A DNA stretch of 46,814 bases from a virus: positions 1 through 46,814 of IMG/VR virus record IMGVR_UViG_3300028786_000012. The stretch is one strand, 5' to 3'. The notes beneath the pieces were generated by a model. It worked only from the letters and a program-made list of their open reading frames with translations, had not been told where the DNA came from and ran no database searches. Each line of letters opens with the position of its first letter. The stretch's first letter is position 1. The translations under genes and the position numbers were made by a program. Positions 3,629-12,150 of this stretch are shown here, in pieces.

Positions 3629-4453
3629 CTAGTTGGCCTCGGTTTGCAGGTAGTCGAAAGTTTCTTTAGAGACAAGTCCCCAGCTAGAGCCATAACCCGC
3701 CAACAACTCCCCAGCTAGCTCTAGAGCCGCCGTATGGTGATAGTCGTTTTGATCCTCTACGCCCCAGAGTGATCCTGAGACGCTTGTCTCCTCCCCGTTG
3801 TCGTCTAGTAGAGTGACAACTACGCCGACATATTGCCAATCCCCTACGCACCATCCCCGCAGATAATTGAAGTCAGACAATGCAGCCTTTGCCGCTTGTT
3901 GGCGTTTAGTCTGGCTTCCGTCATTGTAGGGTTTGGCGTCCCATCCATCACGGCGGGCAATCCGGCAAGCTTCCGCATAATCGTAGAAACGCTTAGAGCC
4001 GTGACGGCCGCCATTCAAGACAAACTCCCCGGGGAACTTATCCCGACTTACCCAATCAGATACAGGCCCGTGCCCATCGCATTCCTTCCACGGCTCCCCA
4101 CTATCAGTATCCTCCTCAAAGGAGACGCGGAAAGTGAAAGCTTTCCCGGCATATTCCGCTTTGATAGTCTCCCCGCAAAATTCTACGGTAGTCGCGGGGG
4201 GTTTGGCGTCCGCCACAAGCTTAGCGTAGGGGGACTGGTAGGATAGAACCTCTACCACTACACTAGTCCCGTCTAGGATTGCCACTAGGCGGTGGGGGGC
4301 GCCAGTCTTCCAAACGTCTACAGCAGCCTTTAGCGCTACCTTTGCCGCCGCTAGGCCACGGGGCTTAACGTCCAGCTCTAGCCATTGGGCGTCCGTGTCG
4401 AATGCCACGCCAGTGGTGCCAAATACTTGCTGTACTTCTATCCGGTATTTCAT
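3629..4453 (-). CDS. Conserved phage protein of unknown function, 274 aa
   Basis: ATG at 4453 is chosen because an AAAGGAG site lies seven bases upstream; a longer reading to 4531 would run through the leader signals. The middle contains ECDGHGPVSDW, then GSKRFYDYAEACRIARRDGW, and then a strand-rich part around GVVVTLLDDNGEE, a combination I recall from many unrelated phage genomes without known role. It is the first gene of the leftward operon that runs to the window edge. Confidence 0.75.
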   Translation of the reverse strand: MKYRIEVQQVFGTTGVAFDTDAQWLELDVKPRGLAAAKVALKAAVDVWKTGAPHRLVAILDGTSVVVEVLSYQSPYAKLVADAKPPATTVEFCGETIKAEYAGKAFTFRVSFEEDTDSGEPWKECDGHGPVSDWVSRDKFPGEFVLNGGRHGSKRFYDYAEACRIARRDGWDAKPYNDGSQTKRQQAAKAALSDFNYLRGWCVGDWQYVGVVVTLLDDNGEETSVSGSLWGVEDQNDYHHTAALELAGELLAGYGSSWGLVSKETFDYLQTEAN

Positions 4454-4466
4454 TTGCAGCTCCTTT

Positions 4467-4811: not shown

Positions 4812-4966
4812 CTCAGGGGTCTGCCCTCCCCTGCGGATCTGGAAAGGGGTTGGGGGGTGTAGGTGCAATGGAGGCAGACCCCTGTAGGGGAATCCGGTGG
4901 GAGGGCTGCAGGGGAATCGCCTGACCCCTGTGATGGAAACACTCAGACCCCTGTAGCGGTAAGCAG
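4812..4966. repeat. Iteron cluster, about 23-bp period
   Basis: The core GACCCCTGTAGNGG occurs at 4877-4890, 4923-4936 (GACCCCTGTGATGG) and 4946-4959, with a degenerate member at about 4898-4920. The repeat frames start at 4875, 4898, 4921 and 4944, a constant 23 bp. An inverted partial copy (CAGGGGTC) lies at 4814-4821. Two-turn spacing is typical of plasmid iterons or partition centromeres. Its place upstream of parA favours a centromere or par operator, but a replication origin is possible. Confidence 0.6.
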
Positions 4967-5031
4967 CGCCCTTCCCGACTATAGCCTTGGGTGGTTGTGG
5001 AAGCAAGGAAGGGTGTATTGAACTCCTCAGT

Positions 5032-5053
5032 TCCCTAGTTAGGGAGTTCCCTA
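5032..5053. repeat. TCCCTA/TAGGGA operator-like repeats upstream of parA
   Basis: TCCCTA-GT-TAGGGA (5032-5045) is a 14-bp interrupted palindrome, followed by another TCCCTA at 5048-5053. The same word occurs repeatedly between parA and its partner gene (5978-6039). It may be a binding site of the small partition DNA-binding protein. Confidence 0.5.
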
Positions 5054-5175
5054 CTGAAGTATTTGCACAAGGAACTGGACAAGCACTCAATTCAGGACTT
5101 AACTATCTACTCAAGGGCTTGGGGACCACCCTAGCTACTGACTTCCTTACTCACTTGATTCCCGAGGCAATCACA

Positions 5176-5952
5176 ATGGCTATGAAAGTATTCGTTATCA
5201 CCTCTCAGAAGGGTGGCGTGGGCAAGACAACTATCTGTGGGCATATGGGTGTGCTGCTCTCCCGCCTCGGCTTCAGGGTGGTGCTGGTAGACACTGACCC
5301 ACACGCGGGCCTGACAGACTGGTGGAATGACCGTGAGGCAGAAGAGCCACAACTACTGTCAGTTGCCTTTGATGCACTGGCTAACTCTCTGGAGCTGCTG
5401 AAGAACTCTGGCGTGGACTTCGTGATCATTGACACCCCGCCGCAAGTTAGTGATGGCATTAAGGATCTGGTGATGCTCGCTGATCTGGTAGTCATTCCCT
5501 CTAAGGCATCTCGCCATGATCTGCGTGCAGTGCGTCGTACTGTTGATCTGGTGGAGGACACAGGGAAGAAGATGGTCTTCGTGCTGAATGAGGTACGTCC
5601 AAAGACGCGGATTGAGGGTGAGGCGATCTTGGCTATTGCCCAGCACGGTAAGCTCGCCCCGATCATCCACTACCGTCAGGACATCGTTACGAGCATGATC
5701 GATGGTCGCACCATTCAAGAGATTGCCCCTCGTTCCCCGGGGACTGCTGAGATTACCTCCCTAGTGGAATACTTGGTGAAGCAGGTAGGGACTCGGCTAC
5801 CGAACCACTCAGGTAAGGAGGCAGTGAAGCGGGGAGGTAAGCAAGCAATTACTGACCCAAGCACTCAAGTCACTGCGCACTCAGGGACTTACCTCCCCGC
5901 TCCACGAGGGAAGAAAGGAAGTACTAAAGGAACCGCTTCCTCCGTGAAGTAA
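5176..5952 (+). CDS. parA: ParA-family partition ATPase, 258 aa
   Basis: A Walker-type cytoskeletal ATPase that would separate plasmid copies by moving along nucleoid DNA together with a DNA-binding partner. The deviant Walker A motif KGGVGKTT is at residues 12-19, Walker A' DTDPH at 39-43 and Walker B VIIDTPP at 83-89. There is no N-terminal helix-turn-helix, so it resembles the short ParA (type Ib/ParF-like) class. ATG at 5176 is preferred over the longer frame from 4987 because GAGG lies eight bases before it and the Walker A then sits at the usual place. The last 50 residues are a low-complexity basic tail beyond the usual domain, and its DNA contains a perfect 14-bp inverted repeat (5828-5841 and 5888-5901). 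Confidence 0.92.
   Translation: MAMKVFVITSQKGGVGKTTICGHMGVLLSRLGFRVVLVDTDPHAGLTDWWNDREAEEPQLLSVAFDALANSLELLKNSGVDFVIIDTPPQVSDGIKDLVMLADLVVIPSKASRHDLRAVRRTVDLVEDTGKKMVFVLNEVRPKTRIEGEAILAIAQHGKLAPIIHYRQDIVTSMIDGRTIQEIAPRSPGTAEITSLVEYLVKQVGTRLPNHSGKEAVKRGGKQAITDPSTQVTAHSGTYLPAPRGKKGSTKGTASSVK
5828..5901. repeat. 14-bp perfect inverted repeat inside the 3' end of parA
   Basis: AGCGGGGAGGTAAG (5828-5841) and its exact complement (5888-5901) are separated by 46 bp and lie within codons for the low-complexity C-terminal tail. It could form a long-loop hairpin in the parA mRNA or be a protein-binding site. Confidence 0.55.
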
Positions 5953-5977
5953 GTACTGGCATACTGAATTACCCAAT

Positions 5978-6039
5978 TAGGGAACTCCCCAGTTCCCCAG
6001 TTAGGGATATCCCTGAATAGGGAAGTACCCAGCTAGGGG
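5978..6039. repeat. TAGGGA direct repeats between parA and its partner gene
   Basis: TAGGGA at 5978-5983, 6002-6007 and 6018-6023, plus TAGGGG at 6034-6039, gives start-to-start spacings of 24, 16 and 16 bp. Some are paired with an inverted TCCCC or TCCCT. Together with 5032-5053 these bracket parA and suggest a par operator or centromere. Confidence 0.5.
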
Positions 6040-6069
6040 AATCCCCAATTACTCAGTTAGGTGAACATC

Positions 6070-6357
6070 ATGGCAGCGATCAAACCAGCCAGCCTCCCTA
6101 CTAACATCTTGGCGAAGAAGGCTCCCATCACGCCATCAGCACTGCACGATGTGGAGCCACCCGCTAACGTACCTGTGGTGGCTACGCCGCCTGTAGCAGC
6201 TCCTGCTGAGCCAGAGGGCAGGTTGGTGCAGCTCAGTGTGAACGTCAGCCAAGAGACATTCGAGCGGTTCAGTATGGCCCGGGTGAAGACTAGGAAGAAG
6301 GGTCAGCCAATCATCAACGAGGCGATCCTAGATTGGCTGGAGAAGAACAAGTTCTGA
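6070..6357 (+). CDS. Small ribbon-helix-helix partition partner (ParG/ParB-like), 95 aa
   Basis: Probable centromere-binding adaptor for the ParA upstream. The N-terminal half (residues 1-50) is Pro/Ala-rich and probably disordered. Residues about 52-95 show a ribbon-helix-helix pattern, with a short strand (LVQLSVNVS), a helix (QETFERFSMARVKT) and a second helix (INEAILDWLEKN). The ATG at 6070 is preferred to the GTG at 6061 because an AGGTG site then has seven-base spacing. It ends before a terminator. The assignment rests on size, fold pattern and position beside parA. Confidence 0.75.
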   Translation: MAAIKPASLPTNILAKKAPITPSALHDVEPPANVPVVATPPVAAPAEPEGRLVQLSVNVSQETFERFSMARVKTRKKGQPIINEAILDWLEKNKF

Positions 6358-6379
6358 GGGGGGTAGTGGGAATGAAGAA

Positions 6380-6397
6380 GGGCGCCTTACGGCGCCC
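6380..6397 (+). terminator. Intrinsic terminator after the par operon
   Basis: GGGCGCC (6380-6386), loop TTAC, GGCGCCC (6391-6397), then TTTGTCTT. It lies between the convergent par operon and the RepL-like gene ending at 6419, so it may serve the plus strand mainly. Confidence 0.75.
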
Positions 6398-6418
6398 TTT
6401 GTCTTGCTGGAGATTAGA

Positions 6419-6988
6419 TCACAGCAGTTTGCCCTGTCCGCCACGCCCCGTCTGGATGGTTGGTAATTGCTCAAGAGTTTCATCCAGCTCTTCCTGATTA
6501 GGCGGAGGGAGGCCTTCGCCGTGGACTGAAATCTTATCCCCCGGCCCAAGGATTGGAATCTGGTTCAGTGGTCCTTCACCCATGTCCGGGTTATCTTCCT
6601 CAGAGACAAGTACCCGGGCATTGAACAATGCGTATCGTAGGTTGTCACGCTTATCTGCCCATGCAACTCGGGAGTTGACAACGTAGGCAAGTGTACTGCC
6701 CCGGCCAGAACCGATACTGATTGTCTGTATCCAGTTACCCTTGATCAAATCAGTAAGGGCTCGCTTGATCGTAGGCAGTGAGCATCGGTTCAGTTTTGCA
6801 AGGGTTGCCTGACTAGCGACTAGAGCCCCACGTTCATCCATGTTGGCGATCAAACTAATCATCAACGTTGCCGCCCGGGGATTCTCCCGGTTCAGATGTG
6901 CCAGCAATTCGAGTGCTTTCCGTTCAGCCTGCACCCACGTGCCCCGGAGGTCAGGGGTGTTGTACTTGGTAACGGCTTCGTTCATCAT
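6419..6988 (-). CDS. RepL-like winged-helix replication initiator, 189 aa
   Basis: ATG at 6988 follows an AGGAAGGG site; upstream in-frame codons lack one. Residues about 25-130 follow the pattern I know from RepL-type plasmid replication proteins: NPRAATLMISLIANMDERGA, then a helix-turn-helix (LAKLNRCSLPTIKRALTDLIKGNW) and a beta wing ending in VVNSRVAW. The acidic, Pro-rich C-terminus is probably disordered. It is convergent with the par operon and lies just downstream of the palindrome array, the arrangement of an initiator next to its origin. It could also be a copy-number regulator. No nuclease motif is visible. Confidence 0.75.
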   Translation of the reverse strand: MMNEAVTKYNTPDLRGTWVQAERKALELLAHLNRENPRAATLMISLIANMDERGALVASQATLAKLNRCSLPTIKRALTDLIKGNWIQTISIGSGRGSTLAYVVNSRVAWADKRDNLRYALFNARVLVSEEDNPDMGEGPLNQIPILGPGDKISVHGEGLPPPNQEELDETLEQLPTIQTGRGGQGKLL

Positions 6989-7052
6989 GGCTACCCTTCC
7001 TAGCGGACAAGATTGAGTGCTAGTGTGCATGCGTGATTACTAACCGTCAAGG

Positions 7053-7210
7053 GTGATCGTTAGCAGGCACAGATGAGCTAGGGATAGCTCACAGGATGAG
7101 CTACATAATCTGGCAAATTGGTGATTGCTAACGATCACAGATGAGCTATGGGTAGCTCACGTAAGTAGCTCAAGTAGGTGAGCTAGGGGTAGCTCATTCA
7201 GGGTGAGCTA
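7053..7210. repeat. Candidate origin: TGAGCTA palindrome array
   Basis: Three 18-bp palindromes TGAGCTA-N4-TAGCTCA lie at 7074-7091, 7142-7159 and 7179-7196. Extra half-sites are at 7097-7103, 7166-7172 (inverted) and 7204-7210. A perfect 13-bp inverted pair (GTGATCGTTAGCA at 7053-7065 and its complement at 7126-7138) encloses the first palindrome. The array fills the gap between the two RepL-like genes. Dense iterons beside initiator genes are typical of plasmid origins; autoregulatory operator use is also possible. Confidence 0.7.
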
Positions 7211-7259
7211 GCTGAGCCTCTGGAGGCCACGTATTTCAAGGGTGTCGATCTTCCGCCCT

Positions 7260-7937
7260 CTAAGGATCTACTGACACACCGCAGACCGCTGGCCTGAATG
7301 CCCGTTGCCGCTCATAGGTTGCAGCCCAATCTCCACGAGAGAATACCTCCGGATTTACCTCGAACTCGCTATGCCCAACACGTCTGATCACATTTTGGCG
7401 GACCAGCTTAGATAAGTTGTTGCGAAAGGTCTGATCCTTGATCCCCAACTTCGCCGCAATCTTCGCCCGTGCGGAGGTTGGCAGATAGACGAAGTTATCA
7501 GAATCCATCTTGTGCACCAGCTCTAGGAGCAGTGTGGTGTGAGAGCCTTCTAGATCAATAAGCTGCGGAGTGGCGTCTATATAGAGTTTCACGTACGGCG
7601 GTTCATCCGTAGGAAGCTCCACGCTGCTCACTACCCTGACCACCTCCCTGTGTTCTGGAGCCTCGTCGGTCCCACCAATAGATGAAACGTAAGTGTGCAC
7701 CTCTACTAGATCGGCTTCAGTAAATTCAAACCACTCTCCTTCCTTACGCCTATCTTTGAAGTGGGTGTGAACCATACCTTCCAACACTAGGGCATTAGGG
7801 GCATACCAAGTCCTAATGAGTATGATAGGTAATCCGGAGGTTTTCGACAGTGTTCGCCTACGTTGCTCTGGATGATTACTGATACCAACTTTGTGTAAAC
7901 CTATGGAGTTGCGCATTAGGTATAATTGCTGTGCCAT
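7260..7937 (-). CDS. GIY-YIG (T5orf172-type) and RepL-like winged-helix fusion, 225 aa
   Basis: ATG at 7937 is chosen because the domain starts at once (MAQQLYLMRN) and an AAGAGAAG site precedes it. Residues about 4-75 match the GIY-YIG superfamily variant T5orf172/MUG113: LYLMRN, then HKVGIS with a following Arg cluster, a helix with the HTHF segment, and EGEWFEF. Residues about 125-210 match the RepL-type winged helix: TTLLLELVHKMDSDNFVYLP, then IAAKLGIKDQTFRNNLSKLV, then a wing and NPEVFSRGDW. It may be a replication initiator with DNA-cleaving or binding ability, acting on the adjacent palindrome array. Confidence 0.75.
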   Translation of the reverse strand: MAQQLYLMRNSIGLHKVGISNHPEQRRRTLSKTSGLPIILIRTWYAPNALVLEGMVHTHFKDRRKEGEWFEFTEADLVEVHTYVSSIGGTDEAPEHREVVRVVSSVELPTDEPPYVKLYIDATPQLIDLEGSHTTLLLELVHKMDSDNFVYLPTSARAKIAAKLGIKDQTFRNNLSKLVRQNVIRRVGHSEFEVNPEVFSRGDWAATYERQRAFRPAVCGVSVDP

Positions 7938-7980
7938 AAAACTTCTCTTAATAAAATATAACTTCTCATTGCAGTGTAGC

Positions 7981-8467: not shown

Positions 8468-8850
8468 GGGCGAGCCACCAGAGAGTCTTGCCAATCACAG
8501 TCACCCGGTGTAAGGGAGGCTATGACGTTATCCAGTCGCTTGCATTCGATACCGCCAAGTCCAGCCCAAACTCTCTCATCTCGGATAACAGGTCTGCTGC
8601 TGTACCCGAAAATGTTCCCGTTACTATCTCTAGCGATGCACTGGATAGATGGGTGTAGTGCAGACCAATCTACTGTTGGCTTGCTCTTCGGTTTGATGCG
8701 GTACTCTCGGTCACCGAAGTTCCATGCAGGCGCCCCCGCTGGCGCCCAACGTCCATTGGTGACTACCTTTTCTCGAACTTCGATATTCTCGCCCGCTATG
8801 AACGCCTGCATAACACTGATGTAATGCTGAGTTACTTGTTCCTTACTCAC
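8464..8850 (-). CDS. Conserved phage-type hypothetical protein, 128 aa
   Basis: A GTG start at 8850 overlaps the upstream stop by eight bases. The N-terminal 55 residues (a helix YISVMQAFIAGENIE, then WAPAGAPAWNFGDREYRIKP) match a short domain I recall in many phage proteins of unknown role. The remainder (around ECKRLDNVIASLT) has no recognised family. It is part of the long leftward operon. Confidence 0.65.
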   Translation of the reverse strand: MSKEQVTQHYISVMQAFIAGENIEVREKVVTNGRWAPAGAPAWNFGDREYRIKPKSKPTVDWSALHPSIQCIARDSNGNIFGYSSRPVIRDERVWAGLGGIECKRLDNVIASLTPGDCDWQDSLVARP

Positions 8851-9211
8851 TTGCTTGCTTTCCTTTCAATGTATCAATACAGAAGTTCAACAGTTCCCAG
8901 CGGAGACGGCCATAGGCGCTATGCTTAGACCACATGGTACGGTTCGATTCTGCTAGGTCATACGCATCTGTCTTACTATTCCGCTTCTTGGATGGGTCCG
9001 GGATAGGGAATGCACCAGAACCTGAGAACTTCGGCCACTTATCGAACAACCTCTCAAGTGTTCTATCTAACTTCCAGAGTGCATGCATTTGGACCGTGAG
9101 GTCGGAGTAGTAAATGAGGTCCATGTTGTAGCAGATGCCACTAGATGGGTTCGGTGCCAGCTTGACCTTCTCTAATATCTTCAACAGTGCAGCTTCAATT
9201 TCCTTACTCAC
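8843..9211 (-). CDS. Paralogue 4 of the GICY...WPKF...ELL family, 122 aa
   Basis: GTG start at 9211 in a GTGA overlap with the upstream gene. It shares with the three genes at 9467-10478 the ordered motifs GICYNMD, KWPKFSG, FPIPDP and MWSKHSAYGRLRWELLNF, the last in place of MWNPEHPYGALRLELLDF. It is the most divergent member and is separated from the others by the small secreted-protein gene. No known function or catalytic motif. Confidence 0.7.
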   Translation of the reverse strand: MSKEIEAALLKILEKVKLAPNPSSGICYNMDLIYYSDLTVQMHALWKLDRTLERLFDKWPKFSGSGAFPIPDPSKKRNSKTDAYDLAESNRTMWSKHSAYGRLRWELLNFCIDTLKGKQASE

Positions 9212-9474
9212 TTACTAACTTCCTCTTGTTTTGGAATCTCGAACACTGAGCCATTGTAATTACACTCTAGGCCAGTTACAACAACTTTGTTGAACGCAAC
9301 TCGATAACCAACTGGTGCACTCTTACCGCCCAACTCTTTACACTTCTTTTCCCGGGCCATGTAGTCTTCGATAGTGATTGCCTCCTCCCGTGGAATAGGG
9401 GTCATGGCAAACACTGCTGCCTGAGCCTGAACACTAGCGGTTAGCAGGAGAGCAGCTACAATAACTTTACGCAC
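9208..9474 (-). CDS. Small exported protein, 88 aa
   Basis: GTG start at 9474, seven bases after an AAGGAG site and overlapping the previous stop by eight bases. The N-terminus MRKVIVAALLLTASVQAQAA is a clear signal peptide, with signal peptidase I cleavage likely after AQA. The mature part of about 68 residues has two Cys residues that could form a disulphide. It is presumably periplasmic. It is inserted between members of the paralogue array. Family unknown. Confidence 0.7.
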   Translation of the reverse strand: MRKVIVAALLLTASVQAQAAVFAMTPIPREEAITIEDYMAREKKCKELGGKSAPVGYRVAFNKVVVTGLECNYNGSVFEIPKQEEVSK

Positions 9475-9805
9475 TGACTTTCTCCTTGAAGTTTTCAGGG
9501 CTGAAGTAATCGATCATGAAGTCCAGCAACTCTAGGCGAAGGGCTCCGTACGGATGCTCCGGGTTCCACATATTCTCACGGTGGGTTTCGTCAAAGGCTT
9601 CTTCACCTCCCGGGATAGGGTAGTTCTCATCTCCAGAGAACTTAGGCCATGCTGCGAAGGCTTGCTCCCGCAGTACTTCTAGGGCTGGGAGTTCAAGACG
9701 AACAAAGGCAAAGTCCACGTTGTAGCAGATACCGCCGCCGTTGAACTTCGGGCCAGCAGTTTTGATCTGTACTAGTTGTGCATGAAGGCGATTGATAAAT
9801 GTCAA
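9467..9805 (-). CDS. Paralogue 3 of the GICY...WPKF...ELLDF family, 112 aa
   Basis: TTG start at 9805 overlaps the preceding TGA, and the ribosome binding site GGAGCA lies inside the last codons of paralogue 2. Motifs in order are GICYNVDF, AWPKFSG, YPIPGG and MWNPEHPYGALRLELLDF. It is similar in length and sequence to paralogues 1 and 2. No functional clue; the strong conservation of the last block suggests an interaction surface. Confidence 0.75.
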   Translation of the reverse strand: MTFINRLHAQLVQIKTAGPKFNGGGICYNVDFAFVRLELPALEVLREQAFAAWPKFSGDENYPIPGGEEAFDETHRENMWNPEHPYGALRLELLDFMIDYFSPENFKEKVSA

Positions 9806-10131
9806 AGTGTTGCTCCAAAGTGTTCAATCATAAAGTCCAGCAGTTCCAGTCGGAGAGCACCGTAAGGGTGCTCTGGGTTCCACATCACGGACTTACCTGC
9901 CAAGCTGTAGGCCTGCTCGGGGTCGTTACCTTGGGGGCACGGGACGGGCCATGCCTTTAATCCGGAGTACTTAGGCCACGCGCTGAATGCGTCATTGATC
10001 AATGAGTCATGCCCACGGACATTGGCACGGCCCATCCGTACATCCACGTGGAAGCAGATGCCGAGGCAGCTACGTGGAGGGTTGTTCTTTAAGTCAACTA
10101 GGGCGGCGTGGATGTGTTGTGTAAGTGTCAT
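9802..10131 (-). CDS. Paralogue 2 of the GICY...WPKF...ELLDF family, 109 aa
   Basis: ATG at 10131 overlaps the stop of paralogue 1 as ATGA. The ribosome binding site GGAGCA is formed by the Gly-Ala codons near the end of paralogue 1. Motifs: GICFHVDV, AWPKYSG, WPVPCP and MWNPEHPYGALRLELLDF. Function unknown. Confidence 0.75.
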   Translation of the reverse strand: MTLTQHIHAALVDLKNNPPRSCLGICFHVDVRMGRANVRGHDSLINDAFSAWPKYSGLKAWPVPCPQGNDPEQAYSLAGKSVMWNPEHPYGALRLELLDFMIEHFGATL

Positions 10132-10478
10132 AGTTTTGCTCCAAAGTACTCAATCAAGAAGTCCAGCAACTCTAACCTCAAGGCGCCATAAGGGTGTTCC
10201 GGATTCCACATGTTGGCGTCTGGGGTGAATATAAACGCCGCACTTGGACTCATATCCTCACCCTCACCAGTTCGTCCGGGGATGGGGTAGTTCGGGCGGG
10301 TTGTGTACTTCGGCCAAGCCTCGAAGCCGGGGAGGAGGGCGGTAACAACCTCGTAGCTATCTACATCACGTTCGAGGATAGTTGCTACAGCACAACAGAT
10401 ACCGTGGAACAGTTCTGGCGGGCCATCTTTCTTGATTTGAAGCAGGGCAGAGTGGACATCGTTCGCAAGTGTCACAGT
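10128..10478 (-). CDS. Paralogue 1 of the GICY...WPKF...ELLDF family, 116 aa
   Basis: GTG at 10478 is preferred to the longer frame reaching 10544 because the alignment with paralogues 2 and 3 begins there (VTLANDVHSALLQIKK against MTLTQHIHAALVDLKN), a GGTGA site precedes it, and the longer reading would start close to a terminator. Motifs: GICCAVAT, AWPKYTT, YPIPGR and MWNPEHPYGALRLELLDF. It has a longer insert before the last block than its relatives. Confidence 0.7.
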   Translation of the reverse strand, partial: TVTLANDVHSALLQIKKDGPPELFHGICCAVATILERDVDSYEVVTALLPGFEAWPKYTTRPNYPIPGRTGEGEDMSPSAAFIFTPDANMWNPEHPYGALRLELLDFLIEYFGAKL

Positions 10479-10527
10479 TTTCACCAAAAGTCGTACAGTT
10501 CGTTTGTGTGGCGCCAAGATAGCAAAA

Positions 10528-10555
10528 GGCTCCCGTACCGTCAAGTACGAGAGCC
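10528..10555 (-). terminator. Intrinsic terminator on the leftward strand
   Basis: On the minus strand an 11-base stem, GGCTCTCGTAC with GTACGGGAGCC (one G-U pair), encloses a six-base loop and is followed by TTTTGC. It ends 21 bases after the 76-aa gene and would separate the SPFH gene group from the paralogue array or only attenuate it. Confidence 0.7.
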
Positions 10556-10815: not shown

Positions 10816-12117
10816 TTACTTCTTGATGCCCATGTCGAGCGAGAGAGTCTTCATGTTCTGAGCGTTCATAAGGCTCATGAAGTCTTCGACTTGATTGGCA
10901 CGGCTGCCCGAACCACCACCACCCATAGAAAACTGCGACACTGGTGCGTTAGCAATGGCTTGACCAATTGCGTCAGTCATCTTCTCGATAGTCGCCAACT
11001 TCTTATCCAAAGCACCGTCAGCCTCAAGGATCACACGCTTCTCGTAGGCAGAGGCATCTGCCAGAGTTTTGATTGCAAGGCCATCAATCTTTGCCTTTTC
11101 CAGCAATTCGGTTGCAGTCTTACGTGCAATAACGGCGGACTCTTGCTCTTTCGAGGCAGTGGTCAGGGCCAACAGTTTCTCAGTTTCAGCGTTGGTAGTT
11201 TTCTCTACTTGGTCACGCAGAGTTTCTTGACGCTTCTGTTCAACTTCACGCTGACCACGAGCTACTGCCAACAGTTTCGCTTCTTCTTCTTTCAAGCGAT
11301 CAGCACGAGCGATTGCCAAGTCTGCTTGAGCAGTCTGAACTTTCACCATCCGGCCACGGAATTGCTCGTTCGGAATGATGTTAGTGATTCGGGCTTCTAC
11401 AACTTGTGCACCAAGACTAACAAACTGCTGAGCTTTACGAATCTCTTGGCCTTTGTTGTCAACTTCCTTCTCAGTTACGAACTCAGTTCGCTTCTGTTCA
11501 CCATCACTACCGGCACCCGATACAAGTTTGTCACCCTCTTGGCGCTCTTGAATAACTGCCTTCTGAACTTCCTTACGCTTCACGGCGTATTGACCGTTGC
11601 GAAGTTGGTCATCGAAGTTGCTACCGAACTCAGAACGACCACCCGCGAAGAAATCATCTGCCGTCATCAGCGAGGCTGTAGTTTGCAGAGTTTCCTTAAC
11701 CGCTGGAACTACTGCAAGTTGCAGGAAGTTCTCTGGAGTACGATACTCCCGGGCGATTTGCAGGAATTGCTCACCAACTGGCATGCGAACACGTGTGGAA
11801 GCCTCTACAGCGCCATCTACGTTGCCGAGGAATACAACCTTGTAGTTGTCAACCCCTACGCCGTCATCGACCTCTGGACTACGCTCACCGTCCTTCACGA
11901 TAGAGAACTGGAGAGTCTGAGCTTGCTTCCAAGCAGTAGCCTTACCGAACCACTTGGTATCGTATCCCGGCTCAGTCAAGACTTTCTCAGTACCCATGAT
12001 GGTACGGACGTGAGTCTGATAGCCAGCTTCGTTGTTTACCATGACGCTATTGAACAGACCGATGCAGACCAAACTTGCTGCTGCGATACCGATACCAACC
12101 TTTTTCATGAACTGCAT
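10816..12117 (-). CDS. SPFH/band-7 (prohibitin-flotillin-like) membrane protein, 433 aa
   Basis: ATG at 12117 is chosen because an AGGAG site lies just before it; an earlier GTG frame has none. An N-terminal membrane anchor (residues about 5-20) is followed by an SPFH-type domain to about residue 240, then a long charged coiled coil (about 250-370, rich in Ala, Glu, Lys and Arg), and a Gly-rich C-terminus (MGGGGSGSRANQ). SPFH proteins form large ring or cage oligomers on membranes. In phages their role is not established; membrane remodelling, protease control or superinfection exclusion are possibilities. Confidence 0.8.
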   Translation of the reverse strand: MQFMKKVGIGIAAASLVCIGLFNSVMVNNEAGYQTHVRTIMGTEKVLTEPGYDTKWFGKATAWKQAQTLQFSIVKDGERSPEVDDGVGVDNYKVVFLGNVDGAVEASTRVRMPVGEQFLQIAREYRTPENFLQLAVVPAVKETLQTTASLMTADDFFAGGRSEFGSNFDDQLRNGQYAVKRKEVQKAVIQERQEGDKLVSGAGSDGEQKRTEFVTEKEVDNKGQEIRKAQQFVSLGAQVVEARITNIIPNEQFRGRMVKVQTAQADLAIARADRLKEEEAKLLAVARGQREVEQKRQETLRDQVEKTTNAETEKLLALTTASKEQESAVIARKTATELLEKAKIDGLAIKTLADASAYEKRVILEADGALDKKLATIEKMTDAIGQAIANAPVSQFSMGGGGSGSRANQVEDFMSLMNAQNMKTLSLDMGIKK

Positions 12118-12150
12118 TGTTGCTCCTAGATTATTGAATTGTCTTGCCAC

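Follow-up and report, generated by a model that had tools for sequence, protein, structure and literature searches.

A phage-encoded GIY-YIG nuclease domain joined to a RepL winged helix: a candidate origin-directed nuclease

The window analyzed here, a whole stretch of 46,814 nt of viral DNA, encodes a protein in which a T5orf172/MUG113-type GIY-YIG domain, as found in homing-type nucleases of related phages, is joined to the winged helix of a RepL plasmid initiator. We consider it slightly more likely than not, at roughly 55%, that this fusion is an origin-directed nuclease of the type of ICP1 Odn, built with RepL in reversed domain order and directed against rival RepL replicons. Its RepL half would recognize the tandem palindromic iterons of 20-23 bp that stand ahead of repL genes in rival plasmids, phage-plasmids, or satellites. 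The GIY-YIG half would then cut at the bound iterons and stop the replication of the rival, which would benefit the phage. The phage itself would be spared, since its own plasmid-like replicon relies on another Rep with other iterons.

Fusion gene and its domains

The first-pass annotation had placed a GIY-YIG domain fused to a RepL-like winged helix at 7260-7937. These coordinates are correct, and the coding strand is the minus strand. There, translation gives a single ORF of 225 aa starting with an ATG at 7937, and the plus-strand reading of the same interval is full of stops. The fusion itself was confirmed as well, as both domains score above the Pfam cut-offs and the two halves were recovered separately by homology. 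The features of the gene are as follows.

7260-7937 (stop included), minus strand: GIY-YIG::RepL fusion gene, 225 aa (ORF, Pfam)
7942-7949, minus strand: putative ribosome-binding site AAGAGAAG (sequence)
7680-7928, minus strand: GIY-YIG (MUG113/T5orf172) nuclease domain, residues 4-86 (Pfam, alignments, AlphaFold, Foldseek)
7860-7862 and 7779-7781, minus strand: codons of Arg26 and Glu53, respectively, within the GIY-YIG domain
7578-7667, minus strand: linker, residues 91-120, of which 96-117 are predicted to be disordered
7290-7607, minus strand: RepL (PF05732) winged-helix domain, residues 111-216 (Pfam, homology, AlphaFold)

All three Pfam matches exceed curated cut-offs: MUG113 with 47.1 bits (cut-off 22.3, residues 15-81), T5orf172 with 33.5 bits (cut-off 20, residues 13-80), and RepL PF05732 with 24.6 bits (cut-off 20.3, residues 111-204). 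The N-terminal half shares 40-45% identity with GIY-YIG proteins encoded by Vibrio and Pseudomonas phages, the value being 41-45% over the first 70-83 residues. Among these relatives, the T5orf172/MUG113 proteins of vB_PpS_SYP, phiPto-bp6g, and Vibrio phages keep the same residues, but they are short separate proteins or carry other partner regions, without RepL. The unfused copy of the domain in vB_PpS_SYP, the nearest whole-phage relative as judged from the portal protein, shows 42-44% identity. A gene similar to this copy may have been the source of the nuclease half.

As for the C-terminal half, a tblastn search of 72,556 plasmid records found RepL proteins with 37-40% identity. The best match (E 3e-21) was the RepL of the Arsenophonus plasmid pArsFIN14, 39% identical over residues 112-215 of the fusion. 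Identity to stand-alone RepLs in general ranges from 36 to 44%. The RepLs of Klebsiella pC51827_2k, Arsenophonus pArsFIN14, and Aeromonas 9716_6_41 share with the fusion the conserved motifs EPPYVKLY, N-P-x-x-F, and G-x-W. They are, however, stand-alone proteins with an upstream iteron array and a C-terminal tail, and the fusion has none of these three. The tail (..YxxxGxR..) is kept by the stand-alone RepLs aligned. The second half of the linker resembles the N-terminal strand of RepL (..VELPTDEPPYVKLYI), and the candidate recognition helix of the RepL domain is IKDQTFRNNLSKLVRQ.

The nuclease half of the gene has a GC content of 45.8% and the RepL half one of 53.3%, a gap that is compatible with separate origins of the halves and is weak when taken alone. 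Alternatively, recombination could have joined plasmid cassette sequence by accident, in frame, to the gene of a phage nuclease, giving a fusion without selected function, or the contig could be mis-assembled at this point. In favor of this, there is a single contig, with plasmid-like sequence (GC about 53-55%) on one side and phage-like sequence on the other, and the RepL tail is absent. We nevertheless regard this explanation as highly improbable: the ORF runs for 225 codons without stops, conserved residues are kept in both halves, the linker is of the typical flexible kind, the ribosome-binding site is plausible, and phage genes are found on the far side of the cassette too (phrog_11104, 3629-4456). 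The fusion is known from this contig only.

Active site and predicted structure

In alignments with the phage relatives of the GIY-YIG half, Arg26, Glu53, Gly18, and G67-E68-W69-F70 are invariant, and Tyr6 is conserved in every relative beginning there. In the second motif, the fusion has His15 at a variable position, which is occupied by tyrosine in several relatives. It had been recommended to check whether the catalytic arginine and glutamate of the GIY-YIG family are present; both are retained, as Arg26 and Glu53. Glu53 aligns with E180 of ICP1 Odn and Arg26 with the arginine of the Odn EKR motif, and outside the motifs sequence similarity to Odn is marginal (BLAST E 0.1). The E180A substitution abolishes cutting by Odn (PMC8263062).

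A structure prediction, also suggested at that stage, yielded two confident domains joined by a disordered linker. The AlphaFold model, computed from 31 aligned window and locus sequences, has a mean pLDDT of 83 and a pTM of 0.49. Its confident domains span residues 1-90 and, as a winged helix, about 121-210, with blocks mostly at pLDDT 87-97; between them, residues 96-117 form the disordered linker. Foldseek places the first half among viral GIY-YIG/T5orf172 proteins. These include ICP1 ORF88, whose number, position, and domain content identify it as the Odn gene; the match runs through the nuclease domain (E 4e-5, rmsd 2.1 over 106 columns). Against the PDB, Foldseek returned winged-helix regulators of the CodY/CRP type, a single match having E < 0.001. 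The sequence search of the PDB retrieved no relative of the whole fusion, with chance-level or generic helix-turn-helix matches only. PADLOC gave only weak hits on the window.

In regulators of DNA viruses, T5orf172 domains often carry a DNA-binding annotation. The fusion could accordingly be a DNA-binding regulator with an inactive or structural GIY-YIG domain, which represses a promoter or competes with Rep. The winged helices of CodY and CRP, which have the same fold, and the histidine at position 15 in place of the second tyrosine are in line with such a role. We judge it very unlikely all the same, because Arg26, Glu53, and Tyr6 are kept, and because Odn also departs from the GIY-YIG consensus and yet is active (PMC8263062).

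Occurrence of the fusion

The first-pass annotation had supposed that the fusion may be unusual, and it was found nowhere else in the RepL loci, T5orf172 loci, phages, plasmids, and Pseudomonadales genomes searched. A RepL profile search gave 23 loci in IMG/VR and 35 in GTDB genomes. Profile scans of every ORF in these approximately 58 loci and in the other loci collected detected RepL and GIY-YIG in one ORF in the window only. A scan with the GIY-YIG half led to T5orf172 loci without a RepL partner (0 of 10). The whole protein had no close relatives in IMG/VR, and searches of 50,697 phage records and 72,556 plasmid records gave no match over 80% of its length. In 391 Pseudomonadales genomes, no match covered both halves. 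These searches used patterns or one query each, so that distant fusions could be missed. Two long RepL-like ORFs (L074 and L075) contain no Pfam domain. In the literature on T5orf172 with RepL, no such fusion is described at the level of titles and abstracts.

Adjacent candidate origin and its replication protein

Next to the fusion gene lies a plasmid-like replication and partition cassette with the following features.

7053-7210: palindromic iteron cluster, candidate origin of the neighboring Rep, with sites at 7074-7091, 7142-7159, and 7179-7196
6419-6985, minus strand: Pseudomonas-plasmid-type replication protein (HTH_36; Pfam, homology), the ORF reaching an ATG at 7030
5182-5952, plus strand: ParA-type partition ATPase of the plasmid cassette (Pfam, homology)
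6061-6357, plus strand: small protein, possible ParG-like (ribbon-helix-helix) partition partner (ParG E 0.065, below the cut-off)

The cluster contains three 18-nt palindromes (TGAGCTANNNNTAGCTCA) starting at 7074, 7142, and 7179. In the direction of transcription, the cluster follows the fusion gene and stands immediately ahead of the HTH_36 gene. The product of the latter is 55-57% identical to proteins of the Pseudomonas plasmids pJUPA4018, pSDM007, p2_Teo1, and pSN0726-36. One of these homologues is annotated as "replication protein", one as "RepL", and the others as helix-turn-helix or hypothetical proteins. In pJUPA4018, pSDM007, and p2_Teo1, the rep homologue is preceded by TGAGCTACCCCTAGCTCA, which is identical to the minus strand of the window's 7179 site. 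Beyond the iterons, the Pseudomonas plasmids carry a resolvase, where annotated, or other genes, with no nuclease and no GIY-YIG/RepL gene, whereas the window has the fusion there. Homologues in L037/L038 and L039/L040 are also preceded by palindromes, of related or other sequence, and have no fusion beside them. Because identical iterons precede its plasmid homologues without any fusion, we assign the origin at 7053-7210 to the HTH_36 Rep and not to the fusion. The candidate origin noted at first sight is a real palindrome cluster that goes with the neighboring rep gene. The palindromes at 7074-7196 were also considered as binding sites of the fusion and rejected, the HTH_36 Rep being the better candidate to bind them.

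The Pseudomonas plasmids L087-L091 share the HTH_36 replication protein; they are IncP-typed by MOB-suite, several of them in rep_cluster_398. Their HTH_36 gene is preceded by palindromic iterons of the sequence TGAGCTACCCCTAGCTCA in L089-L091 and TGACCTACCCCTAGGTCA in L087.

RepL origins and their iteron arrays

Upstream of RepL genes, a tandem array with a period of 20-23 bp was found in 41 of 49 distinct upstream regions, scoring above all shuffles; this count is descriptive, carries no P value, and includes related sequences. The arrays lie 142-388 nt ahead of the RepL domain, mostly 150-230 nt. Many of the repeats contain inverted half-sites, and the arrays are often palindromic. The array-preceded RepL (PF05732) genes come from several phyla (upstream regions within L002-L075). 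The eight regions lacking an array are those of L042, L053, L064, L072, L051, L032, L026, and L027, and two of them (L053 and L064) comprise less than 200 nt of upstream sequence. The array threshold was self-chosen and the shuffles were few (60 per region and 5 for the window).

No such array precedes the RepL domain of the fusion within 800 nt (22/44 matches, shuffles up to 24), and none is present anywhere in the window (best 27/44, shuffles 24-27), in agreement with Tandem Repeats Finder. Given that the array test was also negative for 8 of the 49 RepL loci, the missing array is not conclusive. For P1 repL, an origin within the gene has been postulated (PMC9948254). A similar location within the fusion gene was rejected, since no repeat or palindrome with arms of at least 6 nt is found inside it.

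The recognition helix offers only a hint at a target. The relatives L014/L016, L020/L021, and L005 share QTF(R/K)N and have GTAC-type half-sites, but L043 and L007 are equally or more similar in the helix and yet differ, and a target read from the helix was not retained. The window has no close match to four such motifs, and the loose pattern GTACY..RGTAC occurs three times against 0.67 expected.

The absence of an own array bears on the earlier proposal of an initiator that may nick or bind its own origin. In this reading, the fusion would bind an origin of the phage that encodes it, and a nick by the GIY-YIG domain would start (rolling-circle) replication. The RepL family is usually filed as rolling-circle, and staphylococcal RepL plasmids are classed as such replicons, though RepL is a small helix-turn-helix protein (PMC5703833). 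Moreover, the iteron-like palindromes sit only 64-186 nt beyond the stop codon of the fusion. These palindromes go with the HTH_36 Rep, however, and the fusion has neither an upstream RepL-type array nor the RepL tail. Its RepL half shows marginal similarity to the HTH_36 Rep (E 0.06). Of the families with a rolling-circle catalytic tyrosine, HUH, or Rep_trans motif, Pfam detects none in the fusion protein, and no GIY-YIG enzyme is known to form the covalent tyrosyl-DNA link of rolling-circle initiators. We thus regard the proposal as unsupported and quite unlikely. An attack on foreign origins fits better than self-initiation because the fusion's own array is absent, the nuclease site is kept, and another Rep runs the replicon.

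Genomic context

The Rep with its origin, ParA, and the possible partition partner suggest that the element is a phage-plasmid with a Pseudomonas-type replicon. The cassette as a whole (4987-7937) has a somewhat higher GC content and lies between phage genes. Upstream of parA, at 4814-4961, there are repeats of CAGACCCCTGTAGGGG, a candidate centromere or par operator. A run of small paralogous ORFs is located at 8843-10544 on the minus strand, and three of these ORFs end with a NPEHPYGALRLELLDF-like sequence. The run is followed at 10816-12150, also on the minus strand, by an SPFH/Band 7 protein of the phage family phrog_11908. The portal protein of the window is 48% identical to that of Pseudomonas phage vB_PpS_SYP. 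The contig is probably a fragment, as the terminase is truncated at its end, end repeats are absent, and the genomes of the portal relatives measure 87-107 kb. Therefore, a RepL-type origin could lie outside the window.

The position of the fusion gene would also suit a homing endonuclease, that is, a selfish free-standing T5orf172 gene whose RepL winged helix is merely the DNA-binding part. It would cut related phages or plasmids lacking the gene at a homing site, perhaps by the origin where the gene sits. T5orf172 genes, common in phages as homing nucleases, lie close to essential genes and at recombination boundaries (PMC10448857). The fusion is indeed found at the junction of the plasmid-like replicon/partition cassette and phage genes, with a GC shift inside the gene, and relatives of its nuclease domain exist as short separate phage genes. 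On the other hand, its binding half is a recognizable initiator domain (E 3e-21 to plasmid RepL) and not one of the usual zinc-finger domains, and we consider homing unlikely.

Comparison with Odn

ICP1 Odn is a T5orf172 nuclease that cuts the origin of the PLE satellite, and the iterons are required for cutting (PMC8263062). The remaining half of Odn shares 42% identity with PLE1 RepA_N (PMC8263062), a closeness comparable to that between the RepL half of the fusion and stand-alone RepLs. Like the fusion, Odn (Gp88/ORF88) is phage-encoded, of nearly the same length (226 vs 225 aa), and contains a T5orf172/GIY-YIG domain with kept arginine and glutamate. In both, most of the non-binding part of the initiator is absent, Odn keeping the RepA binding domain only. 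The binding domains differ: that of Odn is of the RepA_N type (Pfam DUF6945 in our analysis) and N-terminal, whereas that of the fusion is a RepL winged helix and C-terminal. Moreover, the target and the cutting have been demonstrated for Odn, whereas for the fusion both are inferred, as are iteron binding and the benefit to the phage.

Barth et al. (2023) argued that odn-like genes arise repeatedly in phages, always with RepA_N (PMC10448857). Such T5orf172 and RepA_N proteins were described in ICP1 (Gp5) and in the coliphages Inny, Muut, and Mt1B1_P17 (PMC10448857). Like the fusion, they are predicted phage nucleases with a borrowed initiator domain, which would direct them to the origins of satellites. 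They have RepA_N and matching satellites, whereas the fusion has RepL, and no matching element was found for it. The nearest RepLs, from IMG/VR phage contigs and a Myxococcota MAG, are 44% identical, and no cognate target with a RepL above 45% identity was found that would point to a particular satellite or plasmid as the victim.

The fusion is hence a phage-encoded T5orf172 nuclease joined to the binding domain of an initiator, as in Odn, without the RepA_N domain at the N-terminus. The reversed domain order, the different initiator family, and the histidine in place of the second GIY-YIG tyrosine speak against assigning it to the Odn type, as do its occurrence in one contig only, the marginal sequence similarity to Odn, and the failure to find a closely matching target RepL. 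The most likely activity, cutting of the origins of rivals, is so far known only from nucleases with an unrelated binding domain.

Conclusions

Origin-directed nucleases may be a general modular weapon, for which a phage-plasmid captured a RepL binding domain to destroy rival RepL replicons, small plasmids included. We hold this broader reading tentatively, at just under even odds. It would extend the principle beyond RepA_N satellites to the competition between plasmid-like elements. If true, initiator families that are unrelated have more than once served phages in making origin-directed nucleases, and the search for anti-parasite nucleases should go past RepA_N. Small resistance plasmids commonly carry RepL replicons, whose iterons form a defined set of candidate targets. 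Furthermore, the rule of a palindromic array of 20-23 bp helps to define the origins of RepL replicons, a type described as little studied.
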